Below are positions 7,585 to 12,361 of a stretch of 12,906 nt of DNA, piece by piece. Source of the stretch: Oxalobacter sp. (GTDB lineage: Bacteria > Pseudomonadota > Gammaproteobacteria > Burkholderiales > Burkholderiaceae_D). Each line of letters begins with the position of its first letter. The first letter of the stretch is position 1. Below the pieces are notes generated by a model. That model did not search any database and had not been told where the DNA came from. It saw only the letters and a list, made by a program, of their open reading frames with translations. Location: contig JAAZED010000197.1 of the NCBI GenBank assembly GCA_012512465.1, positions 1 to 12,906 on the forward strand, read 5' to 3'. The position numbers and the translations under genes are program-made.

Positions 7585-7661
<77 letters not shown>

Positions 7662-7702: not shown

Positions 7703-7830
7703 ATTTCATGCCTCCTATTGCAGCGGTGTCGCCGCCAGCATTTGTCATGGCTTTTGCATATTGCGCAGGATATTCATCGGCAAAATATGCATAACCGTTC
7801 GCTAAATCGCTGGAAAACCCGCGTGGCCAC
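7701..7830 (-). other. Possible C-terminal coding remnant or frameshifted tail
   Basis: Below the annotated end of the second YeeE/YedE gene, a different minus-strand frame continues to TAA (complement of 7701-7703). It encodes a tail including FADEYPAQYAKAM and GGDTAAIGGMK. Its codon use looks like that of real genes (GCC, GAT, GAA, CCT, CAA, AAA, ATG), and it would have no start of its own unless it began inside the YeeE/YedE gene. It may be the tail of that gene after a frameshift, the remnant of a lost gene, or chance. I recognise no family. Confidence 0.25.
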
Positions 7831-8223
7831 GGAAAATGCCAGCATTCCGGCCAGCATGGCGATAAAAAAGACAACACTTTTTGCGGACGCATAGCCCAGC
7901 AATACAATGGCTGGTCCGGGGCAAATGCCTGCCAGTCCCCAGCCGATACCAAACAGCGCACTTCCTGTTACCAGCCGATAATCAAGGTTTTGGGTATCCG
8001 GTAATTGAAGAGGAATGCCTGTCATGGTAGTTTTGCGTTTTTTTGCTATCAGAAAGACGATCGCACTGATCGGGATAGCCCCTGCCATAACCAGCGCCAG
8101 CGAAGGATCCCAGTTTCCCACAATATCTAGAAATGCCAGGATTTTCACCGGGTTGGACATGCCGGAAAAAATGACGCCCATACCGAAGAGAAGTCCTGAA
8201 ATCAAAGCGGTCAGAATATACAT
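7774..8223 (-). CDS. YeeE/YedE-family (DUF6691-like) sulfur transport membrane protein
   Basis: A 149-residue, very hydrophobic protein with about four membrane segments (near residues 3-20, 42-60, 86-110 and 115-135). The loop GIGWGLAGICPGPAIVLLG carries the conserved Cys101 in the G-x-C-P-G-P motif of the second half of YeeE/YedE proteins. The full-length relative YeeE (TsuA) takes up thiosulfate, passing it along conserved cysteines, and BigR-linked YeeE/YedE pairs have been connected with sulfur export. It starts 10 bp after the preceding partner gene, so they are probably translationally coupled; the ribosome site GAGAAA is weak. The C-terminus RFSERLCIFCR is not family-like and has two extra Cys, while a coding-like frame continues next to it, so a frameshift near the end is possible. 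The direction of transport and the exact substrate cannot be read from the sequence. Confidence 0.85.
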   Translation of the reverse strand: MYILTALISGLLFGMGVIFSGMSNPVKILAFLDIVGNWDPSLALVMAGAIPISAIVFLIAKKRKTTMTGIPLQLPDTQNLDYRLVTGSALFGIGWGLAGICPGPAIVLLGYASAKSVVFFIAMLAGMLAFSVATRVFQRFSERLCIFCR

Positions 8224-8233
8224 GGCGTTTTTC

Positions 8234-8668
8234 TCACATCATCAGGTGGCGGGTAAAAAACACGGTGGAAAATCCGGCAATCATGAAGATGGCCGTTGCG
8301 ACAATGGAGCGTTTTGACAGGCGGGATATTCCACAGATGCCATGACCGCTGGTGCAGCCTGATCCCAGCCGGGCACCGAAACCAACCAGCAACCCTGCCG
8401 CAATCAGGAAAGGCCAGCTCGTATCAATATGGCTTTCGGGCAAAGTGCTCATGCCCTGGTACAGGACGGGAGACAGAAAGATGCCGCCAAGAAAAGCCAG
8501 CCGCCACAACGTATTGTTTCTTGCCGGTGGCAGAAGTCCGCCGATAATTCCACTGATCCCGGCTATTTTTCCATTAACCAGCAACAACAACATGACGGCC
8601 AGCCCGATAAGTACACCACCAGCCAGGGCACTTGCCGGGGTAAAACTGTGCCAGTCAATCATGATCAT
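8234..8668 (-). CDS. YeeE/YedE-family sulfur transport membrane protein, first half
   Basis: A 144-residue membrane protein with about four hydrophobic segments (near residues 15-31, 55-70, 86-100 and 122-138). It has the diagnostic YeeE/YedE motif GCTSGHGICG (104-113), with Cys105 and Cys112 in the pore-lining loop, and KIAGISGIIGGLL near the start. It would pair with the next gene to make a two-subunit version of a YeeE-type channel, like the PmpA/PmpB arrangement. The start ATG (8668-8666) overlaps the stop of the upstream regulator by 4 bp (ATGA), with GGGAGA as ribosome site; ATG at codon 3 is an alternative start. The overlap and the 10-bp gap to the next gene indicate one operon of regulator plus two transport genes. 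Confidence 0.88.
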   Translation of the reverse strand: MIMIDWHSFTPASALAGGVLIGLAVMLLLLVNGKIAGISGIIGGLLPPARNNTLWRLAFLGGIFLSPVLYQGMSTLPESHIDTSWPFLIAAGLLVGFGARLGSGCTSGHGICGISRLSKRSIVATAIFMIAGFSTVFFTRHLMM

Positions 8669-8997
8669 GACGTCTCTCCCGTCTGCTGGCAGTAAAGTTC
8701 ACACAGGGTTGACAGCACTGCGAGCACTTTGGGACTGGCTACAGAGTAATAAATCCGCTTTCCCTCCCGTCGTGTATTGACGAGTCCCTCTGTTCTCAGA
8801 ACCCCCAGTTGCTGGGAAAGTGACGGCTGGTGAATGTCCAGTTGCTCCTCAAGTTCGCTGACGGACTTTTCCCCTTTGCTCAATTGGCACAGCAAAAGCA
8901 GGCGATCCTCGTTAGACAGGGCGCGCAGCGTCTGGGCAGCCTCTTTAGCGGTACTTCTCATCAACTCCCTGTCCAGGTCTGTAAATTTGATCATCAC
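8665..8997 (-). CDS. ArsR-family regulator of BigR/SqrR/YgaV type (persulfide sensor)
   Basis: A 110-residue winged-helix protein: TLRALSNEDRLLLLCQLSKGE (helices 1-2), SVSELEEQLDIHQPSLSQQLGVLR (recognition helices), then the wing REGKRIYYSVAS and a C-terminal helix. It has no ArsR metal-binding ELCVC motif. Instead Cys37 lies in LLCQLSKGE and Cys103 in the last helix, 66 residues apart. In SqrR the sensing pair is C41 and C107, also 66 apart, and forms a tetrasulfide with sulfane sulfur that releases DNA. An additional Cys99 is present. The start is GTG at 8997 with AGGAG 6 nt upstream; the next codon is ATG (8994), 9 nt away, also acceptable. The protein probably represses both its own operon and the divergent reductase through the palindromes at 9034-9067 (inference). 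Confidence 0.9.
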   Translation of the reverse strand: MMIKFTDLDRELMRSTAKEAAQTLRALSNEDRLLLLCQLSKGEKSVSELEEQLDIHQPSLSQQLGVLRTEGLVNTRREGKRIYYSVASPKVLAVLSTLCELYCQQTGETS

Positions 8998-9028
8998 GAA
9001 ATACTCCTGTTGTTGCGTTGCATGAAGG

Positions 9029-9056
9029 TTTACATTATATATAATTGTATTATATT
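9029..9056 (+). promoter_or_regulatory. Promoter of the reductase-rhodanese gene
   Basis: TTTACA (9029-9034) and TATATT (9051-9056) match the sigma-70 boxes at 5 of 6 positions each with 16-bp spacing. The whole spacer and the -10 box lie within the palindromes of the intergenic region, so a bound repressor would block polymerase. On the minus strand TATAAT (complement of 9034-9039) with TTAAAT (complement of 9057-9062), spaced 17 bp, could serve the divergent operon. Confidence 0.5.
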
Positions 9057-9067
9057 ATTTAATATAA
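9034..9067. promoter_or_regulatory. Nested palindromes, candidate operator of the ArsR regulator
   Basis: Three perfect inverted repeats overlap here: ATTATATATAAT (9034-9045), ATATAAT-TGT-ATTATAT (9039-9055), and TTATATTA-TT-TAATATAA (9050-9067). All lie between the divergent start codons. AT-rich inverted repeats at divergent promoters are typical binding sites for BigR-type regulators. AT-only sequence makes short palindromes easy by chance, but the 8+2+8 repeat is harder to explain that way. Confidence 0.55.
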
Positions 9068-9111
9068 CGTTTGGCTGTTTTTAATCCCGTTCATCTTTTC
9101 AGGGAGTCCAT

Positions 9112-10767
9112 ATGGAAACATTGAGAATCATTGTCATTGGCGGTGTTGCCGCTGGCGCATCCTTTGCTGCGCGTGCCCGCCGTCTTTCGGAAACTGCGCA
9201 GATTACGATTATTGAGCGGGGTCCGGATGTGTCTTTTGCCAATTGCGGGCTTCCTTATCATATCGGTGGCGAAATCCCGGAAAGACGGGCGCTGGCGGTG
9301 CAGACTGAGGCGTCACTGAAAGCCATGCTCAATCTGGACGTTCGAACGCTTAGCGAGGCCACCTTCATTGACCGCGCCGCAAAGCGCGTATTGGTCCGCA
9401 ATCTCAGAAACGGGGAAGAGGAGTGGCTGGCGTACGATAAATTGATGCTTTCTCCGGGCGCGGCACCTGTCTATCCTTCGCTTCCCGGCATTGATGATCC
9501 GCGTGTTTTTACCTTGCGTAATCTTCAGGATATGGACCGTATTGCAGCGGCATCGGAAGCGGGAAAGCATGCGGTCATCGTCGGGGCCGGTTTTATCGGG
9601 CTGGAGATGGCCGAACAATTGTATCGCAAGGGACTTTCTGTTGAGATTGTGCAGATCATCCATCAGGTGCTGTCGCTGCTTGATGCCAAATTGGCGGGAT
9701 TGCTTGAAGATGAACTGAGTAAAAACAATATCGGTCTGCATCTGGGAAACCAGATTACCCGTTTTGAGGGCCGCGAAAACAAGCTGCTTTGCCACCTGTC
9801 TTCGGGAACGGTGTTGGAAACAGACCTTGTTGTCATGTCTATCGGTGTGCAGCCTGAAAGCGCGCTGGCACAAGCAGCGGGCTTACAACTGGGCGAAAAA
9901 GGGCATATTGCGGTCAGTGCATTCATGCAAACTTCTGACCCCGATATTTATGCTGCAGGCGATGTTGTTGAAACCAGCGAACGAACGATGGGAGGACAAA
10001 TAGCTGTGCCGCTTGGCGGGCCGGCAAACCGGCAGGGGCGTGTTGCAGCAGATCACCTCTTCCTTAAGGAAAAAGCGCGCCCCTATCCCGGCTCACTGGG
10101 AACCTCGATTGTCCGGGTATTTGACATGGCTGCAGGCGTCACAGGCTGGAATGAAAAGGGGCTGAAAAAGGCCGGTATTGATTATGAAACAGTAACCGTC
10201 ACGGACAGCCATCACGTCTCATACTATCCGGGAGCCAAACCGCTGACACTCAAAATATTCTGGGCACGCGACGATGGTATGCTCCTTGGAGCACAGGCTG
10301 CCGGGCAGGAAGGGGTTGATAAACGGCTTGATGTGATGGCAACTGCAATTGCGGCAGGGATGAACATTGAAGATCTTTGTCATCTGGAACTTGCCTATGC
10401 GCCTCCATTTGGCTCAGCCAAGGATGTGGTCAATATCGCCGGATTTGTCGCAACCAACATGCAGGACGAACTGGTTAATATGGTTCATGAATTTCCGGCG
10501 GCTTCAGCCGATGTGCAGTTGCTGGATGTACGTGGCAAGGCATTGTCAATGGCCCAGCCGGTTCCCGGTGCCATCAATATTCCCTTAACATCCTTGCGAA
10601 ACAGCATGGACAGGCTTGATCCGGGCAAACCGGTTGTCATATTTTGCTCGATAGGAAAGAACAGCTATTTTGCATCCAGAGTGTTGTTGCAGCATGGTTT
10701 TGATGCAAAAAGCCTTGCCGGAGGTGCTTTTATCAATAAGGAACGCAAAGCGGCGCCTGTCACGTAA
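9112..10767 (+). CDS. CoA-disulfide/persulfide reductase with C-terminal rhodanese domain
   Basis: A 551-residue flavoprotein. Residues 1-445 are a class of pyridine nucleotide-disulfide oxidoreductase with a single active cysteine: FAD site VIGGVAAG (8-15), active SFANCGLPYH with Cys45, NAD(P)H site GAGFIGLEMAE (158-168), second FAD motif YAAGDV (280-285), then SYYPGA and the C-terminal YAPPFGSAKD. Residues about 455-550 are a rhodanese domain with LLDVRG, GAINIPL and the active loop CSIGKNS, where Cys512 would carry persulfide. This is the architecture of CoADR-Rhd and of Npsr, the NADH-dependent persulfide reductase. It probably reduces persulfides or CoA polysulfides in the cytoplasm. Q181 replaces the acidic residue normal at the end of the NAD-binding second strand (VE), so cofactor choice is uncertain. 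Start ATG 9112 follows CAGGGAG (9100-9106) at 5 nt. It is divergent from the sensor operon. Confidence 0.93.
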   Translation: METLRIIVIGGVAAGASFAARARRLSETAQITIIERGPDVSFANCGLPYHIGGEIPERRALAVQTEASLKAMLNLDVRTLSEATFIDRAAKRVLVRNLRNGEEEWLAYDKLMLSPGAAPVYPSLPGIDDPRVFTLRNLQDMDRIAAASEAGKHAVIVGAGFIGLEMAEQLYRKGLSVEIVQIIHQVLSLLDAKLAGLLEDELSKNNIGLHLGNQITRFEGRENKLLCHLSSGTVLETDLVVMSIGVQPESALAQAAGLQLGEKGHIAVSAFMQTSDPDIYAAGDVVETSERTMGGQIAVPLGGPANRQGRVAADHLFLKEKARPYPGSLGTSIVRVFDMAAGVTGWNEKGLKKAGIDYETVTVTDSHHVSYYPGAKPLTLKIFWARDDGMLLGAQAAGQEGVDKRLDVMATAIAAGMNIEDLCHLELAYAPPFGSAKDVVNIAGFVATNMQDELVNMVHEFPAASADVQLLDVRGKALSMAQPVPGAINIPLTSLRNSMDRLDPGKPVVIFCSIGKNSYFASRVLLQHGFDAKSLAGGAFINKERKAAPVT

Positions 10768-10926: not shown

Positions 10927-11142
10927 TTATTTATTGTCAGGAAGAAGGCTTCTTCTCATGCATTCGTCATACAGGGTATCTTCAGACCAGTTGTTGTAGC
11001 CGATGAATCCTTCCATCATCATGGTCGCCAGCGCAATTTTTGCGGCATCCGACGTCCGGATGAACTGCACAAAATATTCCAGGTCGTAACTGACAAGCTT
11101 TTGGATTAAAAGCTCTTTTCTGGTTCTGATCTCGTTTGGCAT
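10927..11142 (-). CDS. Small hypothetical protein, 71 residues
   Basis: A charged, mostly helical-looking protein starting MPNEIRTRKELLIQKLVSYD, with EYFVQFIRTSDAAKIALAT and a methionine run MMM before EGFIGYNNWSEDTLYDECM. There is no signal peptide and no clear membrane segment. I recognise no family. The ATG (11142-11140) has AGGACAGG upstream on the minus strand. It lies 18 bp after the other small gene, in the same direction, so the two are probably co-transcribed. The pattern of charged and aromatic residues and the ribosome site argue that it is a real gene rather than noise. It is shorter than most orphan genes, so confidence is moderate. Confidence 0.6.
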   Translation of the reverse strand: MPNEIRTRKELLIQKLVSYDLEYFVQFIRTSDAAKIALATMMMEGFIGYNNWSEDTLYDECMRRSLLPDNK

Positions 11143-11310: not shown

Positions 11311-11629
11311 GTCACTTCCTTTGCCGGATTTTGCGTGTGCCTGTCTATTGAAAATCATATCCAGAAAACATCATAGCGGCCCATTGGTTTTTTATCTGAA
11401 GATGGTCAATAGTTTTGTTTACCGCTGCTTTTGTTATTGTATGCGAAACCGTGAAGACGTTACACGGGTAAATGCCCCTGTTCATGAATATGACAGAGAG
11501 GAAGGCATGTATTTATGATGTTGATTGGCCGTTTTTAGAAGACAGATTATCTGGAATGACAGCCACGCCCAATCATTGCTGATTCAGGGTAAACTGTGTT
11601 CACAGCCTGTTCGGACAAGGGGGTCATCC
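11311..11629. other. Intergenic gap between divergent accessory genes
   Basis: These 319 bp separate the minus-strand small genes from the plus-strand secreted protein. I see no RNA gene, terminator or strong promoter. Open frames here are short, lack ribosome sites and are not protein-like. The only clear signal is the Shine-Dalgarno AAGGGGG at 11617-11623 for the next gene. Confidence 0.5.
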
Positions 11630-12361
11630 ATGCGAAAATTGTTGCTGTTACCGGTTCTTTTTCTTTACGCTTTTTTTGCCCACTCTCTTGCCAATGCCGC
11701 CCCTTCACTGACGGTTACCGATATGCAGCCAGCAGGAGAGGCTGCATATCTGACGCAGATTGTTGTGCGCTTTTCCGAAAACATGCGTTCGTCCGGACAA
11801 ACAGAGCAGGATGCGGCTACTTCCCCCCTTCAACTGAAAACTTCCTCGGGTGATCTCCCGGCAGGAAAGTATCGCTGGACAGATCCGGCAACGCTGACGT
11901 ATCTTTTTGATGAACCGGTTGCTGCTCCCCTGACAATCATGGCTACCGTTTTGGCAGGTGCCAAAGCGCTTTCAGGCCGCGTATTGAATAAAACAGTCTC
12001 GTGGAAAGTCAGTACGCCACCGTATGATTTTTCAGTGGCACCGTATGCTTCGCTTCCTGCCAAAAATCCGATTGTGGCGCTTTCCAGCAATTACGAAATT
12101 ACGCCTGGCATTCTCAAAGACAAGCTGTCCATCCTGATGAATGGACAGATGATTCCCTTTACTGTCGATGAAATCCAACACCCTATACCACCAGGACATC
12201 GCAGCATATATACCGCATTCGGGTATCGCATTGACATGCCGGCAGATCTACCGCCGAATGCCATTGTTGAGATCAGGCTGGCTCCTGGCATTACTTTCAA
12301 AAAAGGCGGTGAACCGGCAAAAGCACATACTTTCATTGTGACAGGTTATAAATCACAATAA
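11630..12361 (+). CDS. Secreted Ig-like protein similar to the N-terminus of bacterial alpha-2-macroglobulins
   Basis: A 243-residue protein. It begins with a Sec signal peptide: MRK, a Leu/Phe-rich core LLLLPVLFLYAFFAHSL, and a probable cleavage site after NAA (about residue 23). The mature part contains VRFSENMRSS, then LPAGKYRWTDPATLTYLFDEP and LSGRVLNKTVSWKVST, followed by a second segment with NPIVALSSNYEITPGIL and a closing IEIRLAPG-like strand. This resembles the first beta-sandwich domains of bacterial alpha-2-macroglobulins, or Big_5/SbsA-type Ig domains. Full bacterial A2Ms have about 1500 residues or more with a thioester CLEQ motif; none of that is here, so it is either stand-alone or truncated. 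ATG 11630 has AAGGGGG at 6 nt; the frame is open back to a TTG at 11525 without a ribosome site. The family link is by eye only. Confidence 0.72.
   Translation: MRKLLLLPVLFLYAFFAHSLANAAPSLTVTDMQPAGEAAYLTQIVVRFSENMRSSGQTEQDAATSPLQLKTSSGDLPAGKYRWTDPATLTYLFDEPVAAPLTIMATVLAGAKALSGRVLNKTVSWKVSTPPYDFSVAPYASLPAKNPIVALSSNYEITPGILKDKLSILMNGQMIPFTVDEIQHPIPPGHRSIYTAFGYRIDMPADLPPNAIVEIRLAPGITFKKGGEPAKAHTFIVTGYKSQ

Follow-up and report, generated by a model that had tools for sequence, protein, structure and literature searches.

Among the described systems, the closest to the locus studied here are the bigR-controlled yeeE-yedE-pdo2 operon of Acinetobacter baumannii and its forerunner, the pigS/pmp system of Serratia, as far as the accessible text of the two reports goes (PMC7315123, PMC11582611). 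Our locus is a module of four genes in a 12,906-nucleotide stretch of Oxalobacter sp. DNA (GenBank assembly GCA_012512465.1, contig JAAZED010000197.1), the whole of which is called the window below. Like the window, the Acinetobacter and Serratia systems possess an ArsR-type dithiol repressor (with C34 and C100 there) and two YeeE/YedE proteins (PMC7315123), and, again as in the window, PmpA and PmpB each correspond to one half of full-length YeeE and have one conserved cysteine (PMC11582611). The enzyme is different. That of A. baumannii is a persulfide dioxygenase (PDO; PMC7315123), whereas the window carries a divergent reductase-rhodanese gene, and a PDO was not found in a genome of the same species. 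The bigR operon of Xylella and Agrobacterium shares its repressor type with the window. Unlike the window, it encodes Blh, a DUF442-ETHE1 protein, as well as a transporter related to TauE, and YeeE is not mentioned in the accessible sections of that report (PMC5823870).

A sulfane-sulfur sensor that controls a CoADR-RHD-type CoA-persulfide reductase, which is the design proposed here, is known from Enterococcus faecalis, in its cst-like operon with coaP (PMC9405070). As in the window, there is no mention of a PDO in the accessible part of that report. In contrast to the window, the sensor there is CstR, unrelated to the ArsR type, and YeeE goes unmentioned (PMC9405070). The Npsr enzymes of Shewanella loihica and Archaeoglobus fulgidus resemble the reductase of the window in being CoA-linked and in having a flavin-side cysteine and a C-terminal rhodanese cysteine, sulfur passing from the rhodanese cysteine via CoA to the flavin-side cysteine; a BigR-type operator or a link to pmpAB, however, goes unmentioned in the sections of this work that are accessible (PMC7969121). 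In the open-licence literature searched, we found no publication in which a BigR/SqrR/PmpAB system and a CoADR-type reductase are linked. A BigR-type repressor and channel with a PDO, and a CstR-regulated CoA-persulfide reductase, are already known; what appears to be new is that the two designs are joined.

We consider it probable that the four genes form one module with a single predicted shared operator region, which would sense sulfane sulfur and, in place of the O2-dependent oxidation of relatives, reduce it to H2S at the expense of NAD(P)H. The first-pass annotation of this DNA had proposed such an anaerobic variant, with the reductase in the place of the PDO. This central proposal is supported, because the reductase occupies the same divergent slot, the predicted operator is of the same class with the same 15-bp phasing, and the search of the same-species genome for a PDO was negative. 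Sensing, transport and catalysis themselves are inferred by analogy with the systems mentioned above.

Components of the module

All four open reading frames (ORFs) were recovered in the window at the positions given below, with the reductase gene divergent from arsR-pmpA-pmpB. The genes of the latter operon are tightly packed, arsR and pmpA overlapping by 4 bp and pmpA and pmpB being separated by 10 bp. The repressor gene (8665..8997, minus strand) encodes an ArsR-family protein that we call BigR/SqrR-like. It matches HTH_5 (E 2.1e-12), and its closest PDB relatives are 13ct/6o8k (91.9 bits, deposited as 'ArsR family'), which we take to be SqrR, followed by BigR 3pqj (82.5 bits). C37 and C103 are invariant in all four Oxalobacter homologues and align with the matching cysteines of the SqrR/BigR-type PDB sequences; C99 is variable. 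The sensor is of the ArsR family, and not of the CsoR family expected for a CstR-CoAPR operon. CstR itself belongs to the CsoR family.

The pmpB-like gene (7774..8223, minus strand) and the pmpA-like gene (8234..8668, minus strand) encode proteins of 149 and 144 aa, respectively, each corresponding to one half of a YeeE/YedE-type membrane protein. The first matches DUF6691 (E 1.9e-47) and scores 25 bits against the N-terminal half of Sulf_transp, below the cut-off of 27, and the second scores 31.3 bits against the C-terminal half, above the cut-off. In sets of 4 and of 12 homologues C101 of PmpB never varies, and C105 and C112 of PmpA are likewise constant in sets of 4 and of 14. The window thus has the split YeeE arrangement, i.e. 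two half-length proteins with a conserved cysteine each, and PmpA has C112 as an extra invariant cysteine.

The reductase gene (9112..10767, plus strand; 551 aa) encodes Pyr_redox_2, dimerisation and rhodanese domains according to Pfam. Its top PDB match is 3nta (E 2.5e-154, residues 5-539), presumably the Shewanella enzyme. The flavin-side cysteine is C45, within SFANC, and the rhodanese cysteine is C512; together with the two tyrosine motifs, also present, these are the features of CoADR-RHD/Npsr enzymes. The rhodanese loop reads CSIGKNS in the window versus CQVGLRG in 3nta. Among related enzymes the loop is GKNSYF in ten module-type sequences, GKMSYF in an unclassified proteobacterial metagenome-assembled genome (MAG) and GRTSYF in a set of second Oxalobacter copies, and more distant reductases of three families (f5, f24 and f38) have GLR-type loops. 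The cysteine loop of the MAG protein aligns, yet Pfam finds no rhodanese domain in it at E 1e-5. The first-pass description of a Cys37/Cys103 ArsR protein in a tight operon with two half-size YeeE/YedE proteins, facing a CoADR-type reductase-rhodanese, is borne out by the ORFs, the cysteines, the reductase domains and the 3nta match.

The second CoADR-rhodanese copy occurs in six Oxalobacter genomes (G000:C407, L018 and L036; G012:C1:2167560-2169173, L019 and L026; L020; L011; L012; L013). It is 57-59% identical to that of the window and has other neighbour genes.

A shared predicted operator class and a probably exchanged enzyme

To model the operator, a symmetric matrix of 24 bp was trained on 42 PDO-type regions, which were cut by position and included no Oxalobacter sequence. 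Clean ORFs were available for 55 of 57 upstream regions, and one locus (L152) was left out of the motif work as too short. The log-likelihood of the matrix is 543, compared with 182-206 for three local shuffles. A hand-drawn first pattern had been rejected, since its spacing was wrong, it missed known sites and it was about as frequent as its control; the matrix from PDO loci was used instead. In the shared promoter of the window the matrix predicts two sites, for which strand is not applicable: a 24-bp near-palindrome at 9032..9055 (27.9 bits, local-shuffle p 0.0005) and, 15 bp from it, a site at 9047..9070 (23.1 bits). A second site lies 8-40 bp away in 26 of the 42 training loci, and in 20 of these 26 the spacing is 15 bp, so that the spacing in the window is the commonest one of PDO loci. 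By this comparison the double site of the window is of the same predicted operator class as the PDO loci, the class being defined by the PDO-loci matrix and not by the footprinted BigR box.

Seven other Oxalobacter promoters of arsR or of first-copy reductases score 29.5-34.0 bits, and all eight tested, including the window, have a local-shuffle p of at most 0.0005. The top 28 matrix positions in 226 kb of Oxalobacter sequence, which comprise the neighbourhoods retrieved here rather than a random genome sample, are all within these promoters. At the scale of whole genomes, a plain pattern with up to two mismatches gave 14 positions in 13 Oxalobacter genomes, 12 of them at arsR or a reductase, and the reversed control pattern gave 6. 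The 14 positions are distributed over the window's own genome (G000, 2), the same-species genome (G012, 2), O. formigenes (G001, 4), O. paraformigenes (G004, 3) and G003, G009 and G005 (1 each). Both matches in the window's own genome are the two operator sites described above, and both matches in the same-species genome are at the module. An additional operator-like match in O. formigenes (L223, G001:C1:1748516-1748539, 21 bits) is followed after about 85 bp by an ORF of 302 aa, which has a transporter-like ORF in its vicinity, and is probably due to chance.

The position of the reductase was compared with that of PDO genes in relatives. In a scan of named genomes, the best 80 of 576 PmpA relatives defined 80 loci, whose neighbours were inspected within 6 kb. 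An ArsR gene was present in 57 of these loci and a PDO in 45; the PDO matches include some at about 100 bits with just 30-33% identity, as well as partial ones in L132 and L164 at 60-70 bits. Among the 57 ArsR-pmpA loci, an ETHE1/Blh-type PDO was found in 42, of which 36 have it in the divergent slot. The reductase fills that slot in two, Formivibrio citricus DSM 6150 and the unclassified MAG, with 70 and 66% identity, respectively, to the window's enzyme. Formivibrio is an anaerobe. None of the 57 loci contains both enzymes. The same divergent arrangement of arsR-pmpA-pmpB and reductase, with an operator site, was found in all three genomes of another genus (g41), and in a genome of another family (G751) the four genes are all in one direction, also with an operator site. 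The order of the four genes is more than chance, because the quartet is found again in further genomes, at different places on the chromosome. The comparison of neighbourhoods that the first-pass annotation had suggested thus places the reductase in the divergent slot used by the PDO in relatives.

That annotation had also seen no PDO at the locus, and indeed no PDO-like ORF is present anywhere in the window. The window's own genome is a draft (2.04 Mb, 448 contigs), whereas the same-species genome is a single contig (2.6 Mb, 99% complete). The search for ETHE1/Blh homologues in the latter, another of its suggestions, gave nine PF00753 matches. Eight were translated and scanned, and these are GloB, YcbL-like, lactonase-like and other proteins without a good name, none being ETHE1/Blh; the ninth, an 838-aa frame that was left unscanned, was taken for ComEC by its length. 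The nearest metallo-beta-lactamase of this genome was rejected as a PDO, being YcbL/GloB-like (264 bits to 2xf4 versus 58 to ETHE1 4chl). Across the 13 Oxalobacter genomes the highest score of the Blh model, whose cut-off is 625 bits, is 71 bits; the PDO of a relative scores 385. Neither the same-species genome nor the window's own, which is 85% complete, nor the other 11 Oxalobacter genomes yielded a PDO. A PDO elsewhere in the genome, which the first-pass annotation had named as evidence against its proposal if under the same operator, thus did not turn up in the same-species genome. The score of 71 bits belongs to an extra metallo-beta-lactamase of another Oxalobacter (G007:C14:41130-41645; L070, L099) that is 28-29% identical to the PDO queries. 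Across 392 genomes of the family, a relative's PDO used as query at E 1e-25 matched in 229, with no match in the 13 Oxalobacter or the three g41 genomes. The reductase, searched at E 1e-120, is present in 13 of the 392 genomes (ten Oxalobacter and the three g41), and a PDO in none of these 13.

Evolution and surroundings of the module

In the reductase tree, module-type and second Oxalobacter copies form one group (100/100), with the second copies as one starred clade inside it; a single clade of module reductases is not resolved. L193 and L201 duplicate G001 and G004 and were omitted from the tree of ArsR, PmpA and PmpB. In it, one group (99/88) lying among PDO-type modules unites the window with G009, Formivibrio and the three g41 rows; G751 is placed elsewhere, together with O. 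formigenes and with O. paraformigenes (100/99). The starred branches of this tree force at least two changes of the reductase label. The genes flanking the module also differ between the same-species genome, G009 and g41. Because of this tree and these flanks we infer that the module was probably transferred laterally. A wider picture is about evenly poised in our estimation: the module would be a plug-in cassette in which sensor type, phased double operator and split channel are kept and the end enzyme is swapped according to lifestyle, a dioxygenase in aerobes and an NAD(P)H persulfide reductase in anaerobes. There would have been at least two independent swaps, and anaerobes belonging to different families (Oxalobacter, g41, Formivibrio) would have acquired the reductase version by lateral transfer.

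The ArsR proteins of O. paraformigenes (G004, L095) and O. formigenes (G001, L096) are 39 and 41% identical, respectively, to that of the window, and arsR-pmpAB of both species cluster with the G751 genes. It seems that the sensor and channel of these two species come from another lineage, with the predicted operator class unchanged. In the window, a tRNA-Pro (TGG) gene at 7585-7661 (plus strand) is situated between glmM and the end of the module. This side may be an insertion point of the module, since the module is located elsewhere in G009 and g41. Beyond the reductase, the window has ORFs at 10927-11142 (minus strand, 71 aa) and 11525-12361 (plus strand, 278 aa), for which no Pfam or NCBIfam match was found at E 0.001.

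Alternative explanations and significance

According to the reading we favour, the reduced repressor would bind the two phased sites and shut both promoters, and a persulfide or polysulfide would bridge C37 and C103 and release it. Sulfane sulfur or thiosulfate would cross the inner membrane through PmpAB. C512 of the rhodanese domain would take up the sulfane sulfur, and bound CoA would pass it on to C45, from which FAD and NAD(P)H would free it as sulfide. Several observations weigh against this reading. The repressor scores 106.4 bits with the NCBIfam BigR model, below the equivalog cut-off of 155 (those of two congeners score 102 and 89). It is because of this score that it is filed as BigR/SqrR-like and not as BigR proper: the BigR/SqrR-type call of the first-pass annotation stands as regards ArsR fold, kinship and both cysteines, and falls short at this cut-off. 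Neither enzyme is near 13 of the 57 ArsR-pmpA loci, of which one is on a short contig and two are from Oxalobacter, and the reductases of G503 and G420 have no operator site. Among the 13 Oxalobacter genomes, several of which are incomplete, arsR and pmpAB occur in just five and neither reductase copy in three; the module-type reductase and the second copy are each present in six. PDO and reductase exclude each other over genomes (Fisher test, p 8e-6), but p is 0.14 over genera, so that mutual exclusion is suggestive, not proven. The structure models of the channel halves are too weak to help (mean pLDDT 69 for PmpB and 57 for PmpA): Foldseek with the PmpB model gave no match at E up to 0.001, and the PmpA model was left unsearched. 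Finally, in the accessible text on Hyphomicrobium, the authors do not link its PmpAB to oxidative sulfur metabolism (PMC11582611).

The module could instead serve nutrition, PmpAB importing thiosulfate or zero-valent sulfur, the reductase delivering sulfide for cysteine synthesis and the repressor opening the operon when sulfane sulfur is offered. YeeE-type proteins import thiosulfate or zero-valent sulfur (PMC11582611, PMC9774590) and sulfide is the expected product of the reductase (PMC7969121), to judge from the accessible parts of these sources, and, with an import-type channel in the module, a nutritional role is possible. We regard this explanation as unlikely, given that most ArsR-bearing relatives have the same regulator, channel and predicted operator with a PDO, an enzyme that destroys sulfane sulfur and does not assimilate it, and that an assimilatory module would be expected to have a regulator that responds to sulfur starvation. 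Still less probable is a thiol-redox or air-stress module, in which oxidants would lead C37 and C103 to form a simple disulfide, with CoA disulfide or peroxide as the main substrates of a reductase that would aid aerotolerance. It would suit the three Oxalobacter species described as anaerobic but aerotolerant (PMC9812493) and the C42-C108 disulfide of BigR (PMC9774590), both as given in the accessible sections, and the reductase core does match CoA-disulfide reductase models, though below their cut-offs (434 bits with the NCBIfam model, cut-off 579). The rhodanese fusion and the PmpAB partner, however, point to sulfane sulfur, the PDO version acts on persulfide, and the A. fulgidus Npsr is reported, in the accessible text, to prefer per- and polysulfide, its activity on CoA disulfide being undetectable (PMC7969121).

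The least credible explanation, in our opinion, is that the reductase is a housekeeping gene and by chance the neighbour of an unrelated arsR-pmpAB operon. It is true that some reductase genes, including the second copies, lack the operator, and that several have no arsR-pmpAB nearby. The promoters of four of the six second copies (G008, G002, G012 and G009; G000 and G010 were left out) and that of G005 score from -2.5 to -16.9 bits. This explanation is disfavoured because the predicted operator accompanies the reductase away from arsR, and the recurrence of the quartet at different chromosomal sites also speaks against it. In O. formigenes (G001) and O. paraformigenes (G004) the reductase is about 610 and 205 kb, respectively, from arsR-pmpAB, with a site at both promoters, and the first-copy reductase promoter of G003 carries one as well. 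In another family, the lone reductases of three genomes (G395, G527 and G708; L233, L234 and L235) have a site directly upstream (27.6-33.3 bits), and no arsR-pmpAB was present in the stretches fetched around them; for these, a regulator acting in trans is possible.

The reading of a reductive sulfane-sulfur module predicts H2S as the end product, not sulfite or thiosulfate, and the small predicted regulon of the same-species genome makes it directly testable. BigR-type sulfane-sulfur defence has so far been described around oxygen-dependent PDOs. If our reading is true, the Oxalobacter module would illustrate how an anaerobe of gut or sediment rids itself of reactive sulfur with no need of oxygen, the enzyme being exchanged while sensor, operator and channel stay constant.

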